Source of the DNA: Pseudomonadota bacterium
GTDB lineage: Bacteria; Desulfobacterota; Binatia; Binatales; Binataceae
Assembly: GCA_021325355.1 (NCBI GenBank)
Contig: JAJPHI010000011.1
Span: 62,001 to 126,000, forward strand
Direction of reading: 5' to 3'
DNA length: 64,000 bases
Numbering within the stretch: the stretch's first letter is position 1; every line of letters starts with the position of its first letter. The notes under the pieces are model-generated. The model did not search any database and was not told where the DNA came from. It saw only the letters and a program-made list of their open reading frames with translations. Of the stretch, positions 32,903 to 48,462 are shown piece after piece. Made by a program: the position numbers and the translations under genes.

Positions 32903-33493
32903 GTGGCGGGATCGTCGCAATCGCTGACGCGCTCGCCGCGCCCGGATAATCGCCGCGAACTGCTCCTCGACGCTGCGGCCAGGCTGTTCAGCGACGAAGG
33001 CTTTCATGCCGCCTCGATGCGCGATATCGCGAAGGCGGCCGGGATGCTCTCCGGATCGATTTATTATCACTTCGAATCGAAGGAAGAGCTGCTGCTCGCA
33101 ATCTACGAGGAAGGCGCGCGGCGGCTCGCCGAAGCCGTCGAGAACGCGATCGCCAGGGAGACCGATCCCTGGGCGCGGCTCGAAGCGGCCTGCGCCGCCC
33201 ATCTCGGCGGTCTCATCGCGCATCGCGACTATGCGCGCGTGATGATCCAGACGCCGCCCGACGCCGGCGGCAGTGTCGAATCACGAATCCGCGATCTGCG
33301 TCGCAGGTACGAGGCCCGTTTCCGCGCGCTGATCGAAGCGCTGCCTGCGCCCGGCGACATCGACCGCCGTTATCTGCGGATGCTGCTGTTCGGCGCGCTC
33401 AACTGGTCGCCGGTCTGGTTCCGTCCCGAGCGTGATTCCCCCGAGACGGTAGCGAAACAGTTCATCGCGATGCTGCGACGCTCCTTGAACTGA
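32903..33493 (+). CDS. TetR family transcriptional regulator
   Basis: A 196-residue repressor-type protein. The N-terminal helix-turn-helix (RRELLLDAAARLFSDEGFHAASMRDIAKAAGMLSGSIYYHFESKEELLLAIY) is typical of TetR proteins. The C-terminal ligand domain ends in LLFGALNWSPVWFRPERDSPE, a pattern shared with KstR2- and FadR-like regulators that sense acyl-CoA thioesters. It begins at GTG, preceded by GGAAGG. It may control the diiron gene just upstream or nearby lipid genes; this is inference from position and family. Confidence 0.88.
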   Translation: MAGSSQSLTRSPRPDNRRELLLDAAARLFSDEGFHAASMRDIAKAAGMLSGSIYYHFESKEELLLAIYEEGARRLAEAVENAIARETDPWARLEAACAAHLGGLIAHRDYARVMIQTPPDAGGSVESRIRDLRRRYEARFRALIEALPAPGDIDRRYLRMLLFGALNWSPVWFRPERDSPETVAKQFIAMLRRSLN

Positions 33494-43142: not shown

Positions 43143-44375
43143 CTAGCGATAACGCGGGAGGATCTCCTTGCCGAAGATCTCGAGCTGCCGCTTGACCTGA
43201 TCCAGCGGCAGAAAGCCCTGATCGCTCTGCCACACGAACCACTCAGGATGGACGTTCTCGACCACCGCGTCCATCTCCCGGATAACGTCCGAGGGAGTCC
43301 CGAAGTACGCGAACTTGTTCTTCTCGAAGCGATCCATGGTCAGTTCTGACGCCGGCAGCATCACTTTGCCACTCGGATAGCGCGCTTCGTCTTCCGGCAG
43401 ACGGAAGGCTTCGGAGAAACCGAAGTGATGGAAGAACTGCTTGAAGCCGACGCCAAGGATGCCCTGCTCGGCCAGCTCGTAGGCTTTTTGTTTGTTCTCC
43501 GCGATATTGACGCAGTGCAGGACGCCGAAACTCTCGCCGAGCTTCAGCTTGCGTCCCGCCTTCTCGGCTTCCGCCTGATAAGCCTCGGCAAATTGCCGCA
43601 CCACGGGCGGCTGCGGCAGCAGCACCGTCGGAATGATGCTCTCCTGCGCGCACCATCGAATCGTCGCTTCGCTGACGGAGAAGGCCTGGAAGAGCGGCGG
43701 ATGCGGTTTCTGATACGGTTTGGGTACGATGTTGATCTTCTGAATCCGCCCGAGCTCGTCCACCTCGCCGGGGAAGCCGTATTGACGGGTCCAGTCGGCC
43801 GCCGGCCAAGGCGTGCCTTCCTGCGGATGCGGATACTCGTAGTACTTGCCCTTGAAGCTGAAGGGCTCGGTGCCCCAGGCGAGCTTAAGGAAGCGGAAGA
43901 CCTCTTCGAACGCCTCGCGGTTGACCCGGTCGGTCTCTGATTTATCGCTCATGGTGGCCGAGACATCGACCTTCTGCGCCATCTGATTGAGCCATCGCGT
44001 CTGATAGCCGCGCGCGAAGCCGACAAAGGTGCGACCCTTGGTGAGCTGATCCAGCCATGCGATCTCGAGGGCAAGGCGCAGCGGATTCCATCCCGGCAGG
44101 ACGTAGCCTATCGGACCGACCTTGATCCGCTTGGTGTTATGAATGACGTGTTGGGTGAGCACCGGCAGACTGCCCATCTCGACGCCTTCGCTGTGCAGGT
44201 GATGTTCGGGGAAGCAGAAGCCGTCGAAGCCGACCTCCTCAGCCAATTGAGCGCATTCCACGACCTCCTGGATCATGCGGTCCCAGCGCTCCTGATGCAT
44301 CGCGATCGGGCGGAGGCGCTTACGCTCCTCAAGCGTCGCCGGCAGCGTCGGCAGGACAAAGAACATGAACTTCAT
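43143..44375 (-). CDS. Luciferase-like (LLM class) flavin-dependent oxidoreductase
   Basis: A 410-residue bacterial-luciferase-like monooxygenase: the family opening MKFMFFVLPTLP, CFPEHHLHSEGVEMG and PLRLALEIAWLDQLTKGRTFVGFARG are the coenzyme-pocket segments. It oxidises an organic substrate using reduced flavin; the substrate is unknown. Start: GGAGGCCCC lies before the ATG at 44375; the frame opens at 44417. A second LLM gene lies 2.2 kb away beyond an amidohydrolase. Confidence 0.85.
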   Translation of the reverse strand: MKFMFFVLPTLPATLEERKRLRPIAMHQERWDRMIQEVVECAQLAEEVGFDGFCFPEHHLHSEGVEMGSLPVLTQHVIHNTKRIKVGPIGYVLPGWNPLRLALEIAWLDQLTKGRTFVGFARGYQTRWLNQMAQKVDVSATMSDKSETDRVNREAFEEVFRFLKLAWGTEPFSFKGKYYEYPHPQEGTPWPAADWTRQYGFPGEVDELGRIQKINIVPKPYQKPHPPLFQAFSVSEATIRWCAQESIIPTVLLPQPPVVRQFAEAYQAEAEKAGRKLKLGESFGVLHCVNIAENKQKAYELAEQGILGVGFKQFFHHFGFSEAFRLPEDEARYPSGKVMLPASELTMDRFEKNKFAYFGTPSDVIREMDAVVENVHPEWFVWQSDQGFLPLDQVKRQLEIFGKEILPRYR

Positions 44376-44487
44376 AGATGGGGCCTCCGTCAAAAGATGG
44401 GTGTAGTTTCCGCGCACACCCGCGCGTTAAGTTATAGCTTCCCTCACGGGCACAGAGCAAAACCCGTTGCTCCAGCTCCGGAAAAGA

Positions 44488-44550: not shown

Positions 44551-46266
44551 TCAGGCGCCGTGACGCAGGAGACGTCCCGGCGTTGCGCCGGTGCTCTTGC
44601 CGTCCTCGAAGATCACCTCACCGTTCACCATGATGGTGTGATAACCTTCGGCGCGCTGCACCCGTCGCCACTCGCCGGCCGGGAAGTCGCGGACGATTTC
44701 CATCGGCGTGATGTTCAGCTTGTTCAAATCGTAGACCACCACGTCGGCCGCCGATCCTTCAACCAGGGTGCCGCGATTCCTGAACCCGGCGCACATCGCC
44801 GCATGAGCGCTCAGGCGGAAATGCGCCTCTTCGAGCGTCAGGACGTGATTGTCGCGCACCAAACGGATCAGCGTTTCGGTGGGCCAGCGGCCGCCGGTGA
44901 AGAACTTGGTGTGCGCGCCGCCGTCAGAGACCCCGAAGATCGCCATCGAGGGTGAGTTAACAATCTCGGCCATGTAATCCACGCGGCTGTTGATCGGCGG
45001 CGAGTAGAACTCGGCGTTAAGCCCGTCCGCGCACGCGATATCGAGCATCGCGTCGACTTCGTGCTTGCCTTCCATTTTGGCGATTTCGCCAATCTTCATG
45101 TTCTCGTACTTCTTGAGAGCCGGGTCCTTGCACTCGAGCACGAAGATGTCGGTGAAGTTGTTGGTCACCAGTCCGCTTTGCTGGGTGGCGCGCAGCGCCG
45201 GACGCCGCTCGGGATCGCTCAGCTTCATCAGCCGATCTTCGATCGAGCCCGTCGTGCATTCGCGCCACGCCGGCAGATCGTCCCACAGATTCCAGTCCTT
45301 GAACGTGAAGGCGAAGCCGACTTCGAGCGTTGCGGTCTGCGGATAGACGCGAATCCCGCGCTCGACGCAGCTTTCGAGCCACTTCAACTGCGTGCGATGG
45401 CGCTCCGGATAGAAATCGTTGGAGGCGACCGCGTTATACAGAATCGGCCGTCCGCTGATCTCGGCGAGCTCCTCGAAATGACGCTCGGCATAGGTCTGCA
45501 GGTCGCCTTCGTAGTCCCCCGCATCCGGCGCGAAGGTCATCTGGATGAAGCCCTCACCGCGTTCGCCCAGCACTCTGGCCATCTCGATCGCGGTCTCGTT
45601 CTTCATGATGTCCGTGACCATCGGCGTGCCGTCGAAGTCGGCCTGAACGCTGTTGCGGCCGAGCCGCTGCGCCGACCATCCGCAGGCCCCATGATCCATC
45701 GCCTCATGCAGCAGACGCCGCATCTCGGCATGCTCGGCCTCGGTCGGCATCCGCCCCGACTTCGCGTCTTCGAGGCCCATGACCCAGGTCATCAGCGGGG
45801 CGAGCGGCATGAACGGCAGCATATTGATGCCCTTCGGACGACGGTCGATGCTGTCGAGGAACTCTGGATAGGTCACCCAGTCCCATGGCAGGCCGGCCTG
45901 CATCGAGGGGTACGGGATCGCCTCCGTGCGCGTCATCGTGAGCATCGAGCGGTCGCGCATATCCGGCTTGACCGGCGCAAAGCCGAACCCGCAGTTGCCG
46001 ATCACCACCGAAGTGACTCCGTGCCAGCTCGAGATGGTGCAGTAGGGGTCCCAGAAGAGCTGCGCATCATAATGGGTATGCAGATCGACAAACCCGGGAA
46101 CGACGAACTGCCCCGCGGCGTCGATCACTTTGCGGGCCTGATGATTCTTCAGGTACCCAATCTTGGCGATTTTGCCGTCCTTGATCCCGACGTCGCTGCG
46201 GAAACGCGGCATCCGCGTACCGTCGATGATCGTTCCGCCTCTGATAATGGTATCGAACTCTGCCAT
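44551..46266 (-). CDS. Amidohydrolase family protein (N-acyl-D-amino-acid deacylase-like)
   Basis: A 571-residue metal-dependent hydrolase of the amidohydrolase superfamily, D-aminoacylase/dihydroorotase-like branch. H63 and H65 in VDLHTHYDAQLFWDP form the first metal-binding motif, and the late GVSDGGAHTKFF segment provides the Asp ligand. A short N-terminal beta-sandwich precedes it (IIRGGTIIDGT---FRSDVGIKDGKIAKIG) and returns at the C-terminus (VVYDLNKLNITPMEIVRD). N-acyl-D-amino-acid deacylases and related amidases share this form; the substrate is unknown. Promoter elements and a shared operator-like motif lie upstream at 46326-46374. Confidence 0.87.
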   Translation of the reverse strand: MAEFDTIIRGGTIIDGTRMPRFRSDVGIKDGKIAKIGYLKNHQARKVIDAAGQFVVPGFVDLHTHYDAQLFWDPYCTISSWHGVTSVVIGNCGFGFAPVKPDMRDRSMLTMTRTEAIPYPSMQAGLPWDWVTYPEFLDSIDRRPKGINMLPFMPLAPLMTWVMGLEDAKSGRMPTEAEHAEMRRLLHEAMDHGACGWSAQRLGRNSVQADFDGTPMVTDIMKNETAIEMARVLGERGEGFIQMTFAPDAGDYEGDLQTYAERHFEELAEISGRPILYNAVASNDFYPERHRTQLKWLESCVERGIRVYPQTATLEVGFAFTFKDWNLWDDLPAWRECTTGSIEDRLMKLSDPERRPALRATQQSGLVTNNFTDIFVLECKDPALKKYENMKIGEIAKMEGKHEVDAMLDIACADGLNAEFYSPPINSRVDYMAEIVNSPSMAIFGVSDGGAHTKFFTGGRWPTETLIRLVRDNHVLTLEEAHFRLSAHAAMCAGFRNRGTLVEGSAADVVVYDLNKLNITPMEIVRDFPAGEWRRVQRAEGYHTIMVNGEVIFEDGKSTGATPGRLLRHGA

Positions 46267-46325
46267 AGAACCTCCCCGAGCTGTGCGCGGCCTGTCCCTG
46301 CCGCGGTTGCGTGATTGTCGGATCT

Positions 46326-46344
46326 CAACTGTTGCCGGAGTTAA
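46326..46344 (-). promoter_or_regulatory. Operator-like 19-bp element upstream of the amidohydrolase
   Basis: On the plus strand the motif CAACTGTTGCC-3-GTTAA. It overlaps the expected transcription start of the amidohydrolase gene, just past its -10 box, and matches the element at 47763-47781 at 15 of 19 positions. Confidence 0.5.
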
Positions 46345-46346
46345 GC

Positions 46347-46374
46347 TTTAGATCCACCGTGATCGTTTTGTCAA
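46347..46374 (-). promoter_or_regulatory. Promoter of the amidohydrolase gene
   Basis: On the minus strand TTGACA (46369-46374) is a perfect -35 box. TCTAAA (46347-46352) follows after a 16-base spacer as a fair -10 box. Start of transcription would fall near 46340. Confidence 0.55.
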
Positions 46375-46568
46375 GGGAACGAGCAACTCCCGGTTAACAG
46401 ATGGACGGCGCGCCGCGCGAGGCGCTTCGGCGCAGCGACGCCCCTTCGCGACGGCACGGCAAGGACTCGCGCGCACCGTCTATCAGCGGACCGGCGCGGC
46501 ACAGGCCTTCGCGATTCTTCATGCGGTCGGCCGTCGGGCCCGTAAGCGGAGTTTGACGGGAAAAAGAT

Positions 46569-46611
46569 GCCGGTGCGGGCGCGGTCGGCGATGACCGCAC
46601 CCAACACCGGC
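46569..46611 (-). terminator. Intrinsic terminator after the second LLM gene
   Basis: A 7-bp outer stem (GCCGGTG/CACCGGC) and an inner near-perfect 10-bp stem lie directly past the stop of the minus-strand LLM gene. On that strand the stem is followed by ATCTTTTTCCC, a good U-tract. Confidence 0.7.
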
Positions 46612-46622
46612 GATGATTCAGC

Positions 46623-47747
46623 CTACCTACCGGCGGCAGCCAGCGAGATTTCCTCGCTGGCGATCGTGCGATGTGGATTGAAGTGCGGCAGCACGTGCTT
46701 TCCGATGAGCCGCAGCGACTTCATGATGTTCTGGTGCGGGATGCGGCCCGCCTGCTTGAACATGATGACCTGGTCGATGCCGGTTTTTTCGAACGCCTCG
46801 AGCTTGCGGCAGACCTCGTCCGGATTGCCGACCACCACCATGTGATGCTGCTTCAGTTGCGCGTCGGGCGCGTCCTTCGGATCGAGATCCATGTTCATCA
46901 GGTGGCGCAGATATTCGTACGAATACAGCTTGTTCTTGACCATCAGCGGTTCGAACAGCTTGGCGACGTTGTGCATGAACCAGCGCGCGCCCTCGATCCC
47001 GATGGCTTCCTCCTCCTTGTTCTCCGCCACATGGCAGATGATGAGGCCCGCGAACTGATCGTTCGGCACCTTCGGCACCTGGTCGGAGCGTTTGGCGAAA
47101 GCCTTCTTGTGGGCTTCCATGCTCTTCTGCACCTGCTCGAAATTAAGGCTGAAGCTAAGCGCCCCGAGCCCGCGGTCGCCGGCCAGCTCATACGAGTCGG
47201 GCGCCACGCACGCCATCCACATCGGCGGATGCGGCTTCTGGATCGGCTTGGGCACCACCCGCCGCGGCGGGATCTTCATCAGCTTGCCATCGAATTCGAG
47301 AATCTCGTCGGTCCAGGCCTTGACGATAATTTCGAGCGCTTCGCGGACTTCCTGGCGCGTGCGATCGTAGTCAACCGAAAAGCCGTCAAGCTCCTGCGCC
47401 GTGGTCGAACGCCCGGTCCCGAGCTCCATCCGCCCGTTGCTCATAATATCGAGCACGGCGGCCTGTTCTGCTACTTTAATTGGGTTATTGAAATTGAAGG
47501 GCAACAGTCGCACGCCGTGTGCGATGCGGATATTTTTGGTACGCTGACTGACGGCGCCATAAAAGACCTCTGGCGCCGAACTATGGGAGTACTCTTCGAG
47601 GAAGTGATGCTCGACTTCCCACACATAGTCGATGCCGATGCGGTCGGCGAGCTCGATCTGCGCGAGCGCCTGCCAGTATATGTTATACTCACTCAGCGCG
47701 TTCCATGGCCGCGGCGTCTCCATCTCGTACAACATGCCGAATTTCAT
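46623..47747 (-). CDS. Luciferase-like (LLM class) flavin-dependent oxidoreductase
   Basis: A 374-residue LLM-fold monooxygenase: MKFGMLYEMETPRP start, YVWEVEHHFLEEYSHSSAPEV (active-site histidine region), LDIMSNGRMELGTGRS (flavin phosphate loop) and KPIQKPHPPMWMA. It resembles the first LLM protein in layout but is distant in sequence. The reaction is flavin-dependent oxygenation with an unknown substrate. GGAGGG lies nine bases before the ATG. It is divergent from a MarR gene, with the shared operator-like element between them. Confidence 0.88.
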   Translation of the reverse strand: MKFGMLYEMETPRPWNALSEYNIYWQALAQIELADRIGIDYVWEVEHHFLEEYSHSSAPEVFYGAVSQRTKNIRIAHGVRLLPFNFNNPIKVAEQAAVLDIMSNGRMELGTGRSTTAQELDGFSVDYDRTRQEVREALEIIVKAWTDEILEFDGKLMKIPPRRVVPKPIQKPHPPMWMACVAPDSYELAGDRGLGALSFSLNFEQVQKSMEAHKKAFAKRSDQVPKVPNDQFAGLIICHVAENKEEEAIGIEGARWFMHNVAKLFEPLMVKNKLYSYEYLRHLMNMDLDPKDAPDAQLKQHHMVVVGNPDEVCRKLEAFEKTGIDQVIMFKQAGRIPHQNIMKSLRLIGKHVLPHFNPHRTIASEEISLAAAGR

Positions 47748-47762
47748 GCAGCACCCTCCATT

Positions 47763-47781
47763 TAACTGTTGCCCTGGTTAA
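47763..47781. promoter_or_regulatory. Operator-like 19-bp element between LLM and MarR genes
   Basis: TAACTGTTGCCCTGGTTAA has imperfect dyad symmetry (TTAAC at 47762-47766, GTTAA at 47777-47781). It sits at the -10 region of the LLM promoter (-35-like TTGACT on the minus strand at 47799-47804) and upstream of the marR promoter, and resembles the element before the amidohydrolase. Confidence 0.55.
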
Positions 47782-47785
47782 TGAT

Positions 47786-47814
47786 TTGTCTCCGCTCCAG
47801 TCAAGCGCTACACT
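47786..47814 (+). promoter_or_regulatory. Promoter of the MarR gene
   Basis: TTGTCT (47786-47791) and TACACT (47809-47814) are separated by 17 bases and would start transcription near 47821, about 18 bases before the first start codon. The 19-bp element lies immediately upstream. Confidence 0.5.
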
Positions 47815-47838
47815 GCGGTCCTGTCAAGGAAAAGCCAG

Positions 47839-48462
47839 GTGCCTTTGACTGCACTTAGGAAAATGGAGAACGAATCCTCGACCAACCCCTCGTCATCGAT
47901 TCGCCGCCAATCGGCCGAACTGCTCGAGATGTTCTATGCGGTGCACTACGGCAGCAACATGGCGCTCGAGGATGCGATGCGCGGTGAACTCACCCGCAAG
48001 CAGGCCGCGATTCTGTGGCTCATCCGCTCCGAAGGCGAGAGTGCTCGCGGGATGCGCCGCAAGGATATCTTTCGCAAGCTCCAGGACTGGTTCGATATCA
48101 CCAGCCCCGCCGTGACCAAGGCCCTGCGGGCCATGATGCGGCCGCCGCTCGGCCTGGTGCGGCTCGCGGAGAGCGCCGACTCGGCTCGCGAAAAGACGGT
48201 GTTCCTGACTCCGCGCGGGGAGCAGTTCCTCGGCACGATGGTTTCGCGGGGGCTCGAATACCTGCGGCGAATCCTTGAAGAAACCGCCAAGGAAATCTCG
48301 AGCGACGAGATCGACGGTGGGATCAAGTTTCTGCGCGCCGGCATCGGCGGTTCAGAGCGGATCCGCGCGATCGATGCCGCTCGCGATCGCGAAGCCGCCG
48401 CCGAGCCGCGTACCCGGCCGCTCCGCCGTCCGGCGCGCTCGCGCCTCGCCGCCGCTCCGTAG
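47839..48462 (+). CDS. MarR family winged-helix regulator
   Basis: A 207-residue DNA-binding protein with a MarR-type layout: dimerisation helices, LTRKQAAILWLIRSEGESARGMRRKDIFRKLQDWFDITSPAVTKALRAM (helix-turn-helix with recognition helix) and VRLAES-DSAREKTVFLTPRGEQFL (the wing). The C-terminal 40 residues are an arginine/alanine-rich tail not usual for the family. The start is a GTG preceded by AAGGA, with an ATG eight codons on as an alternative. Divergent from the LLM gene and next to the shared 19-bp element, it is the best candidate for regulator of this block. Confidence 0.83.
   Translation: MPLTALRKMENESSTNPSSSIRRQSAELLEMFYAVHYGSNMALEDAMRGELTRKQAAILWLIRSEGESARGMRRKDIFRKLQDWFDITSPAVTKALRAMMRPPLGLVRLAESADSAREKTVFLTPRGEQFLGTMVSRGLEYLRRILEETAKEISSDEIDGGIKFLRAGIGGSERIRAIDAARDREAAAEPRTRPLRRPARSRLAAAP

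Follow-up and report, generated by a model that had tools for sequence, protein, structure and literature searches.

Predicted operators of a MarR-type regulator beside amidohydrolase and luciferase-like monooxygenase genes in an uncultured member of the Binatia

According to PMC5487221, MarR proteins characterized so far are mostly repressors, are often autoregulatory, and may be encoded divergently from a catabolic operon, as exemplified by HucR with uricase and by PcaV of the pca operon. The locus analyzed here resembles HucR/PcaV-type repressors in its MarR fold (predicted in our case), the divergent gene order, a putative operator between the divergent genes, a further candidate site at an enzyme gene, and targets of a catabolic type. 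It differs in that the regulator matches Pfam HTH_27 only and no NCBIfam model, and in its presumed targets, a luciferase-like monooxygenase (LLM) and an Amidohydro_3 enzyme. This type of system is well known and its mechanism is ordinary. Judging from sequence, the locus most likely encodes a MarR repressor that controls its own gene, the amidohydrolase gene, and, in the genome studied, the LLM gene. In this analysis, these uncultured soil bacteria are represented solely by metagenome-assembled genomes. Once the operator of a regulator is defined, jointly controlled genes can be recognized, and a route opens to the inducer, and hence to the substrate of the LLM and the amidohydrolase.

The regulator and its neighboring genes

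The window, a stretch of 64,000 nucleotides, corresponds to C14:62001-126000 of a 3.36-Mb genome in 35 contigs. Its relevant features are listed in Table 1. The regulator's AlphaFold model (pLDDT, 82.4; pTM, 0.66) has the topology a1-a2-b1-a3-a4-b2-b3-a5-a6 with a winged helix. A Foldseek search of this model against the PDB returned 109 matches at an E value of ≤0.001, the best 50 of which are mostly MarR-family proteins. At the sequence level, a profile search against solved proteins yielded only distant matches, to MepR (E value, 5.1e-4) and Tm0710 (E value, 9.3e-4). Staphylococcus aureus MepR, the best PDB sequence match, is similar in the winged-helix region (E value, 5e-4; 23 bits); it is distant and regulates a multidrug efflux pump. 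All 13 regulator-family members compared with Pfam match HTH_27 (PF13463), the only other hit being DUF6293_C in three of them, and none of the 13 matches a MarR-named Pfam model or an NCBIfam model. The regulator is thus MarR type by its predicted fold and lies outside the named sequence models tested. A literature search turned up no paper on it. Its homologues mostly align only from residue 12 or later, and translation may in fact begin at a downstream ATG, at 47863.

TABLE 1 Genes, predicted operators, and possible promoter elements of the locus
Feature	Position	Strand	Description
MarR-type regulator	47839..48462	+	207 aa; Pfam HTH_27 only; predicted fold
LLM	46623..47747	-	374 aa; PF00296 (Bac_luciferase), E 7.1e-50
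Amidohydrolase	44551..46266	-	571 aa; PF07969 (Amidohydro_3), E 3.2e-20
Second LLM	43143..44417	-	PF00296, E 1.3e-32; 133 bp after the amidohydrolase gene
Operator 1 (predicted)	46326..46344		CAACTGTTGCCGGAGTTAA; upstream of the amidohydrolase gene
Operator 2 (predicted)	47762..47781		TTAACTGTTGCCCTGGTTAA; between the divergent LLM and MarR-type genes
Possible regulator promoter	47786..47814	+	TTGTCT-N17-TACACT; by eye, 8/12 consensus letters, below scan threshold
Possible amidohydrolase -35 element	46369..46374	-	TTGACA; by eye, 24 bp from operator 1
Possible LLM -35 element	47799..47804	-	TTGACT; by eye, 17 bp from operator 2

The solved chain nearest to the LLM is 7bip (E value, 1.6e-32). 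The second LLM gene is possibly cotranscribed with the amidohydrolase gene, and two CoA-transferase family III genes follow on the minus strand. The amidohydrolase, whose nearest solved chain is 3gip, an N-acyl-D-glutamate deacylase (E value, 1.7e-32), belongs to the same Amidohydro_3 fold family as that enzyme and D-aminoacylase (1m7j); its HxH motif, Cys92, and Asp448 are invariant in ten relatives. D-aminoacylases have two further metal-binding histidines in the mid-barrel, giving a ligand set of HxH, Cys, two His, and Asp. Unlike these enzymes, the ten relatives contain no invariant or near-invariant histidine at residues 83 to 451, and the profile left the middle region unaligned to solved structures. 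Since no invariant histidine is found where D-aminoacylases bind metal, the substrate is uncertain, and the metal site of this subfamily may differ from that of D-aminoacylase.

Two 19-bp elements and their recurrence with a regulator clade

An earlier note on this DNA had reported that the sequences at 46326-46344 and 47763-47781 agree at 15 of 19 positions, and both the positions and the count were borne out. The 19-mer of the second site, TAACTGTTGCCCTGGTTAA, is part of TTAAC-N10-GTTAA (47762-47781), a candidate palindrome that is less perfect at operator 1. The first site lies 60 to 78 bp upstream of the amidohydrolase ATG (46266) and the second 16 to 34 bp upstream of the LLM ATG (47747). 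Allowing up to three mismatches, the pattern occurs three times in the window, against 0.19 expected. Across the 3.36-Mb genome, the two window sites are the only full matches, and a tolerance of two mismatches adds a single occurrence with two mismatches (reversed-pattern control, one). The genome scan proposed in the earlier note therefore revealed a rare pattern, not one common by chance. The additional near-match (C1:85926) falls within the coding sequence of a different LLM gene and was set aside.

Shuffled promoter pairs equaled the best 19-mer match between the two promoters in 26 of 2,000 cases, so that on its own this similarity is suggestive, only moderately unusual, and not decisive; whether the sites exceed chance is decided by the comparison with relatives. 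A sigma-70 scan of positions 46200 to 47900 on both strands passed no promoter, so that all transcription starts are tentative. The regulator promoter, described as convincing in the earlier note, was thus overstated: read by eye, it is a weak-looking element just downstream of operator 2.

Counting the window genome, 27 of the 145 genomes searched contain homologues of the regulator (40 matches in total), and the 39 loci other than the window's (L034 to L072) were retrieved for comparison. In a tree of 38 sequences, from which L063 (a 37-aa frame) and L072 (87 aa) were excluded, the window regulator falls in a clade of six (support, 100/97) together with L034 (genome G022), L035 (G005), L036 (G019), L044 (G021), and L045 (G020). 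Promoters were scored with a matrix built from nine sites; same-genome sites were excluded for site-bearing loci, and site-negative loci were scored with the full matrix, which favors finding a site there. On this scale, the clade promoters reach 26.5 (window, operator 2), 23.3 (L034), 19.0 (L035), 23.1 (L036), and 15.1 (L044) bits, each at the floor of 300 simulations (P of about 0.003), while L045 is without a site (7.9 bits; P = 0.053). Four of six clade members thus have the site ahead of the regulator gene, and a fifth has a weaker one. The recognition-helix stretch SPAVTKALR is identical in the four regulators with the strongest sites and differs in L044 (SPAITSALQ) and L045 (NPAITTSLQ). 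Operator 1, scored with own-genome sites likewise excluded, gives 22.0 bits, again at the floor of 300 simulations. Among the 34 homologues outside the clade, only the tree sisters L048 (16.0 bits) and L056 (14.8 bits) score above 10 bits; the other 32 stay below.

A degenerate pattern matched 18 times across the 145 genomes, with 10 matches in the six clade genomes and 8 in the other 139, an excess that is partly built in because 8 of the 10 had served in the design of the pattern. The clade-genome matches comprise two in the window genome (G000), four in G005, three in G019, and one in G022, with none in G020 or G021. The reversed control gave 17 matches, one of them in a clade genome, and the eight outside matches were viewed as ORF maps only. 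One of the two nondesign matches, G005:C22, is probably due to chance, as it lies inside a 918-aa ORF. The other, G005:C6, is located between MmgE/PrpD and CoA-transferase genes, in the promoter orthologous to that of the G019:C258 site (MmgE/PrpD identity between the two genomes, 64%). Both genus g5 genomes thus carry a site between divergent MmgE/PrpD and CoA-transferase III genes (L193:1921-1938 and L205:1501-1518). An MmgE/PrpD orthologue was found only in G005 and G019 among ten genomes searched, and this arm is therefore not relevant to the window genome. A half-site search with GTTAAY-N10-GTTAAC and one mismatch was uninformative, with matches in 100 of 145 genomes and a reversed control that was more common in most.

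Amidohydrolase and LLM promoters as targets

The promoters of all 16 listed amidohydrolase orthologues (at least 74% identity, the window's included) were scored. The site is present in four, namely, the window gene, two in G019, and one in G005, all from genomes with the regulator clade; one of the G019 sites sits between divergent amidohydrolase and regulator genes. Three of the seven orthologues from clade genomes are without it (a 76% paralogue in the window genome, one in G005, and one in G021), as are all nine from genomes in which the clade was not found (two each in G001 and G006, and one each in G007, G030, G033, G035, and G037; G006 is only 53% complete). The association between site and clade among the 16 has a Fisher P value of 0.019. 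In addition, amidohydrolase relatives occur in 7 of the 39 regulator loci (L036, L037, L038, L045, L046, L055, and L070), and in L036 to L038 the amidohydrolase gene is the divergent neighbor of the regulator.

The LLM comparison covered 35 listed orthologues with at least 72% identity, one half-length match being uncounted. Scores were obtained for 16 of the 35 promoters, that of the window among them; one promoter was covered over just 169 bp. Of the 15 others, 14 lack the site, at 3.1 bits or less. In G001, a genome of the same genus, the LLM promoter carries a related but different palindrome, AATTGTTGCCTGCGGCAA (L167:3481-3498; 9.7 bits; P of about 0.02), 14 to 31 bp from the LLM start. 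In that genome, the LLM gene is followed by the amidohydrolase gene and, after a gap of about 2.3 kb, by the second LLM gene (L167); in G044, the amidohydrolase and LLM genes are adjacent. Because the neighborhood is kept in these two genomes, it is plausible that LLM and amidohydrolase are functionally linked also where they have no operator in common.

Taken together, it is quite probable that both elements serve the MarR-type protein as operators, through which it would repress the LLM gene, the amidohydrolase gene, and its own gene until released by a ligand. The protein, presumably as a dimer, would bind operator 2 at the start region of the LLM gene, upstream of its own presumed promoter, as well as operator 1 at the amidohydrolase promoter. 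Bound in this way, it would repress all three genes, a small molecule of the pathway would release it, and read-through from the amidohydrolase gene could then extend into the second LLM gene. Activation was also considered; the operator positions favor repression. The earlier note had proposed one MarR protein acting on both promoters and on itself. For the predicted autoregulation and amidohydrolase control, this is well supported by the recurrence of the site with the clade and its absence from all nine orthologues elsewhere, whereas LLM control is plausible from the position of operator 2 in the window genome. Correspondingly, the comparison of orthologous promoters that the note had suggested revealed conservation for the regulator and some amidohydrolases, and not for the LLM.

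The regulator could instead control only itself and the amidohydrolase, with the LLM promoter merely lying beside the regulator's own operator. The 14 site-free LLM promoters agree with such an arrangement, as does the finding that none of the 39 regulator loci has an LLM orthologue with at least 40% identity (best, about 36%). Nevertheless, we regard it as rather unlikely, given that operator 2 is just 16 to 34 bp upstream of the LLM ATG, that the LLM and amidohydrolase genes are also neighbors in G001 and G044, and that a related palindrome is found in the G001 LLM promoter.

Another DNA-binding protein might read the sites, with the MarR-type gene among its targets; a TetR-like N terminus, for example, is readable by eye in the ORF at 32903-33493. 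From genome to genome, however, the site goes with the MarR-type clade, and in five of six members it is found at the regulator's own promoter, which makes a different binder improbable. Least credible is that the resemblance between the two promoters reflects chance or the trace of a duplication: the shuffled pairs that equal it would allow for this, yet the flanks are unrelated (7/40 and 10/40 identical), and G005, G019, and G022 also carry the site at promoters of regulator or amidohydrolase genes. In view of the comparative site scores, we consider this explanation very improbable.

A proposed wider regulator family in the Binatia

For 33 of the 39 homologues, the nearest ORF upstream that spans at least 110 aa is divergent. 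These neighbors were chosen by hand as ORFs, without a gene caller, and identified by Pfam (L036 to L038 by tblastn). They comprise nine P450s, three phenol/alkene hydroxylases (that of L063 about 1.5 kb away), three acyl-CoA dehydrogenases, three Amidohydro_3 proteins, and one each of Amidohydro_2, Abhydrolase_10, Metal_hydrol, Cyclase, NTP_transf_5, DUF1329, and a BNR-repeat protein; the other eight have no Pfam match. Since the 13 genomes examined hold just 6 to 16 P450 matches each, a share of 9 in 33 is far above background. Several of the loci are related: L065, L069, and L070 belong to one clade, and L072 is too short for the tree. Even so, six independent P450 cases in 33, assuming that 0.3% of genes are P450s, are very unlikely to arise by chance.

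With middling confidence, we propose that these proteins form a lineage-expanded, undescribed MarR-type family of the Binatia, whose paralogues would lie beside different oxidative or hydrolytic genes (P450, phenol/alkene hydroxylase, acyl-CoA dehydrogenase, LLM, and amidohydrolase) and use clade-specific operators. If so, regulator and operator together would label substrate-induced pathways of these uncultured bacteria, and the same approach to finding inducers would extend to the P450 and hydroxylase neighbors. In a general dyad scan of 39 promoters, operators could not be told apart from shuffled sequence in most cases, and no palindrome is therefore claimed for every homologue.

The regulators of L040, L041, L043, L046, L047, and L049 are preceded by a different element, TGTCC..GGACA; they comprise five of the six members of another regulator clade, plus L047 outside it. 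In L056, a palindrome (ATTGTTGCCTCAGGCAACAAT) is located some 110 bp before the point at which the regulator alignment starts. Like the L167 palindrome, it resembles the left half of the window operators, and both are assigned to other regulators or to no identified one.

A search of genome contigs for close relatives confirmed nothing when a single regulator protein served as the query, and yielded 23 loci with an alignment query. Homologue-bearing records are titled Candidatus Binataceae, Binatia, Binatota, or just Deltaproteobacteria or Proteobacteria, apart from two odd labels: this regulator type is also carried by L227, labeled a Klebsiella pneumoniae metagenome-assembled genome, and by L237, labeled an Acidimicrobiia metagenome-assembled genome. 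The K. pneumoniae label is likely wrong, as the contig seems to be that of the class relative G076.
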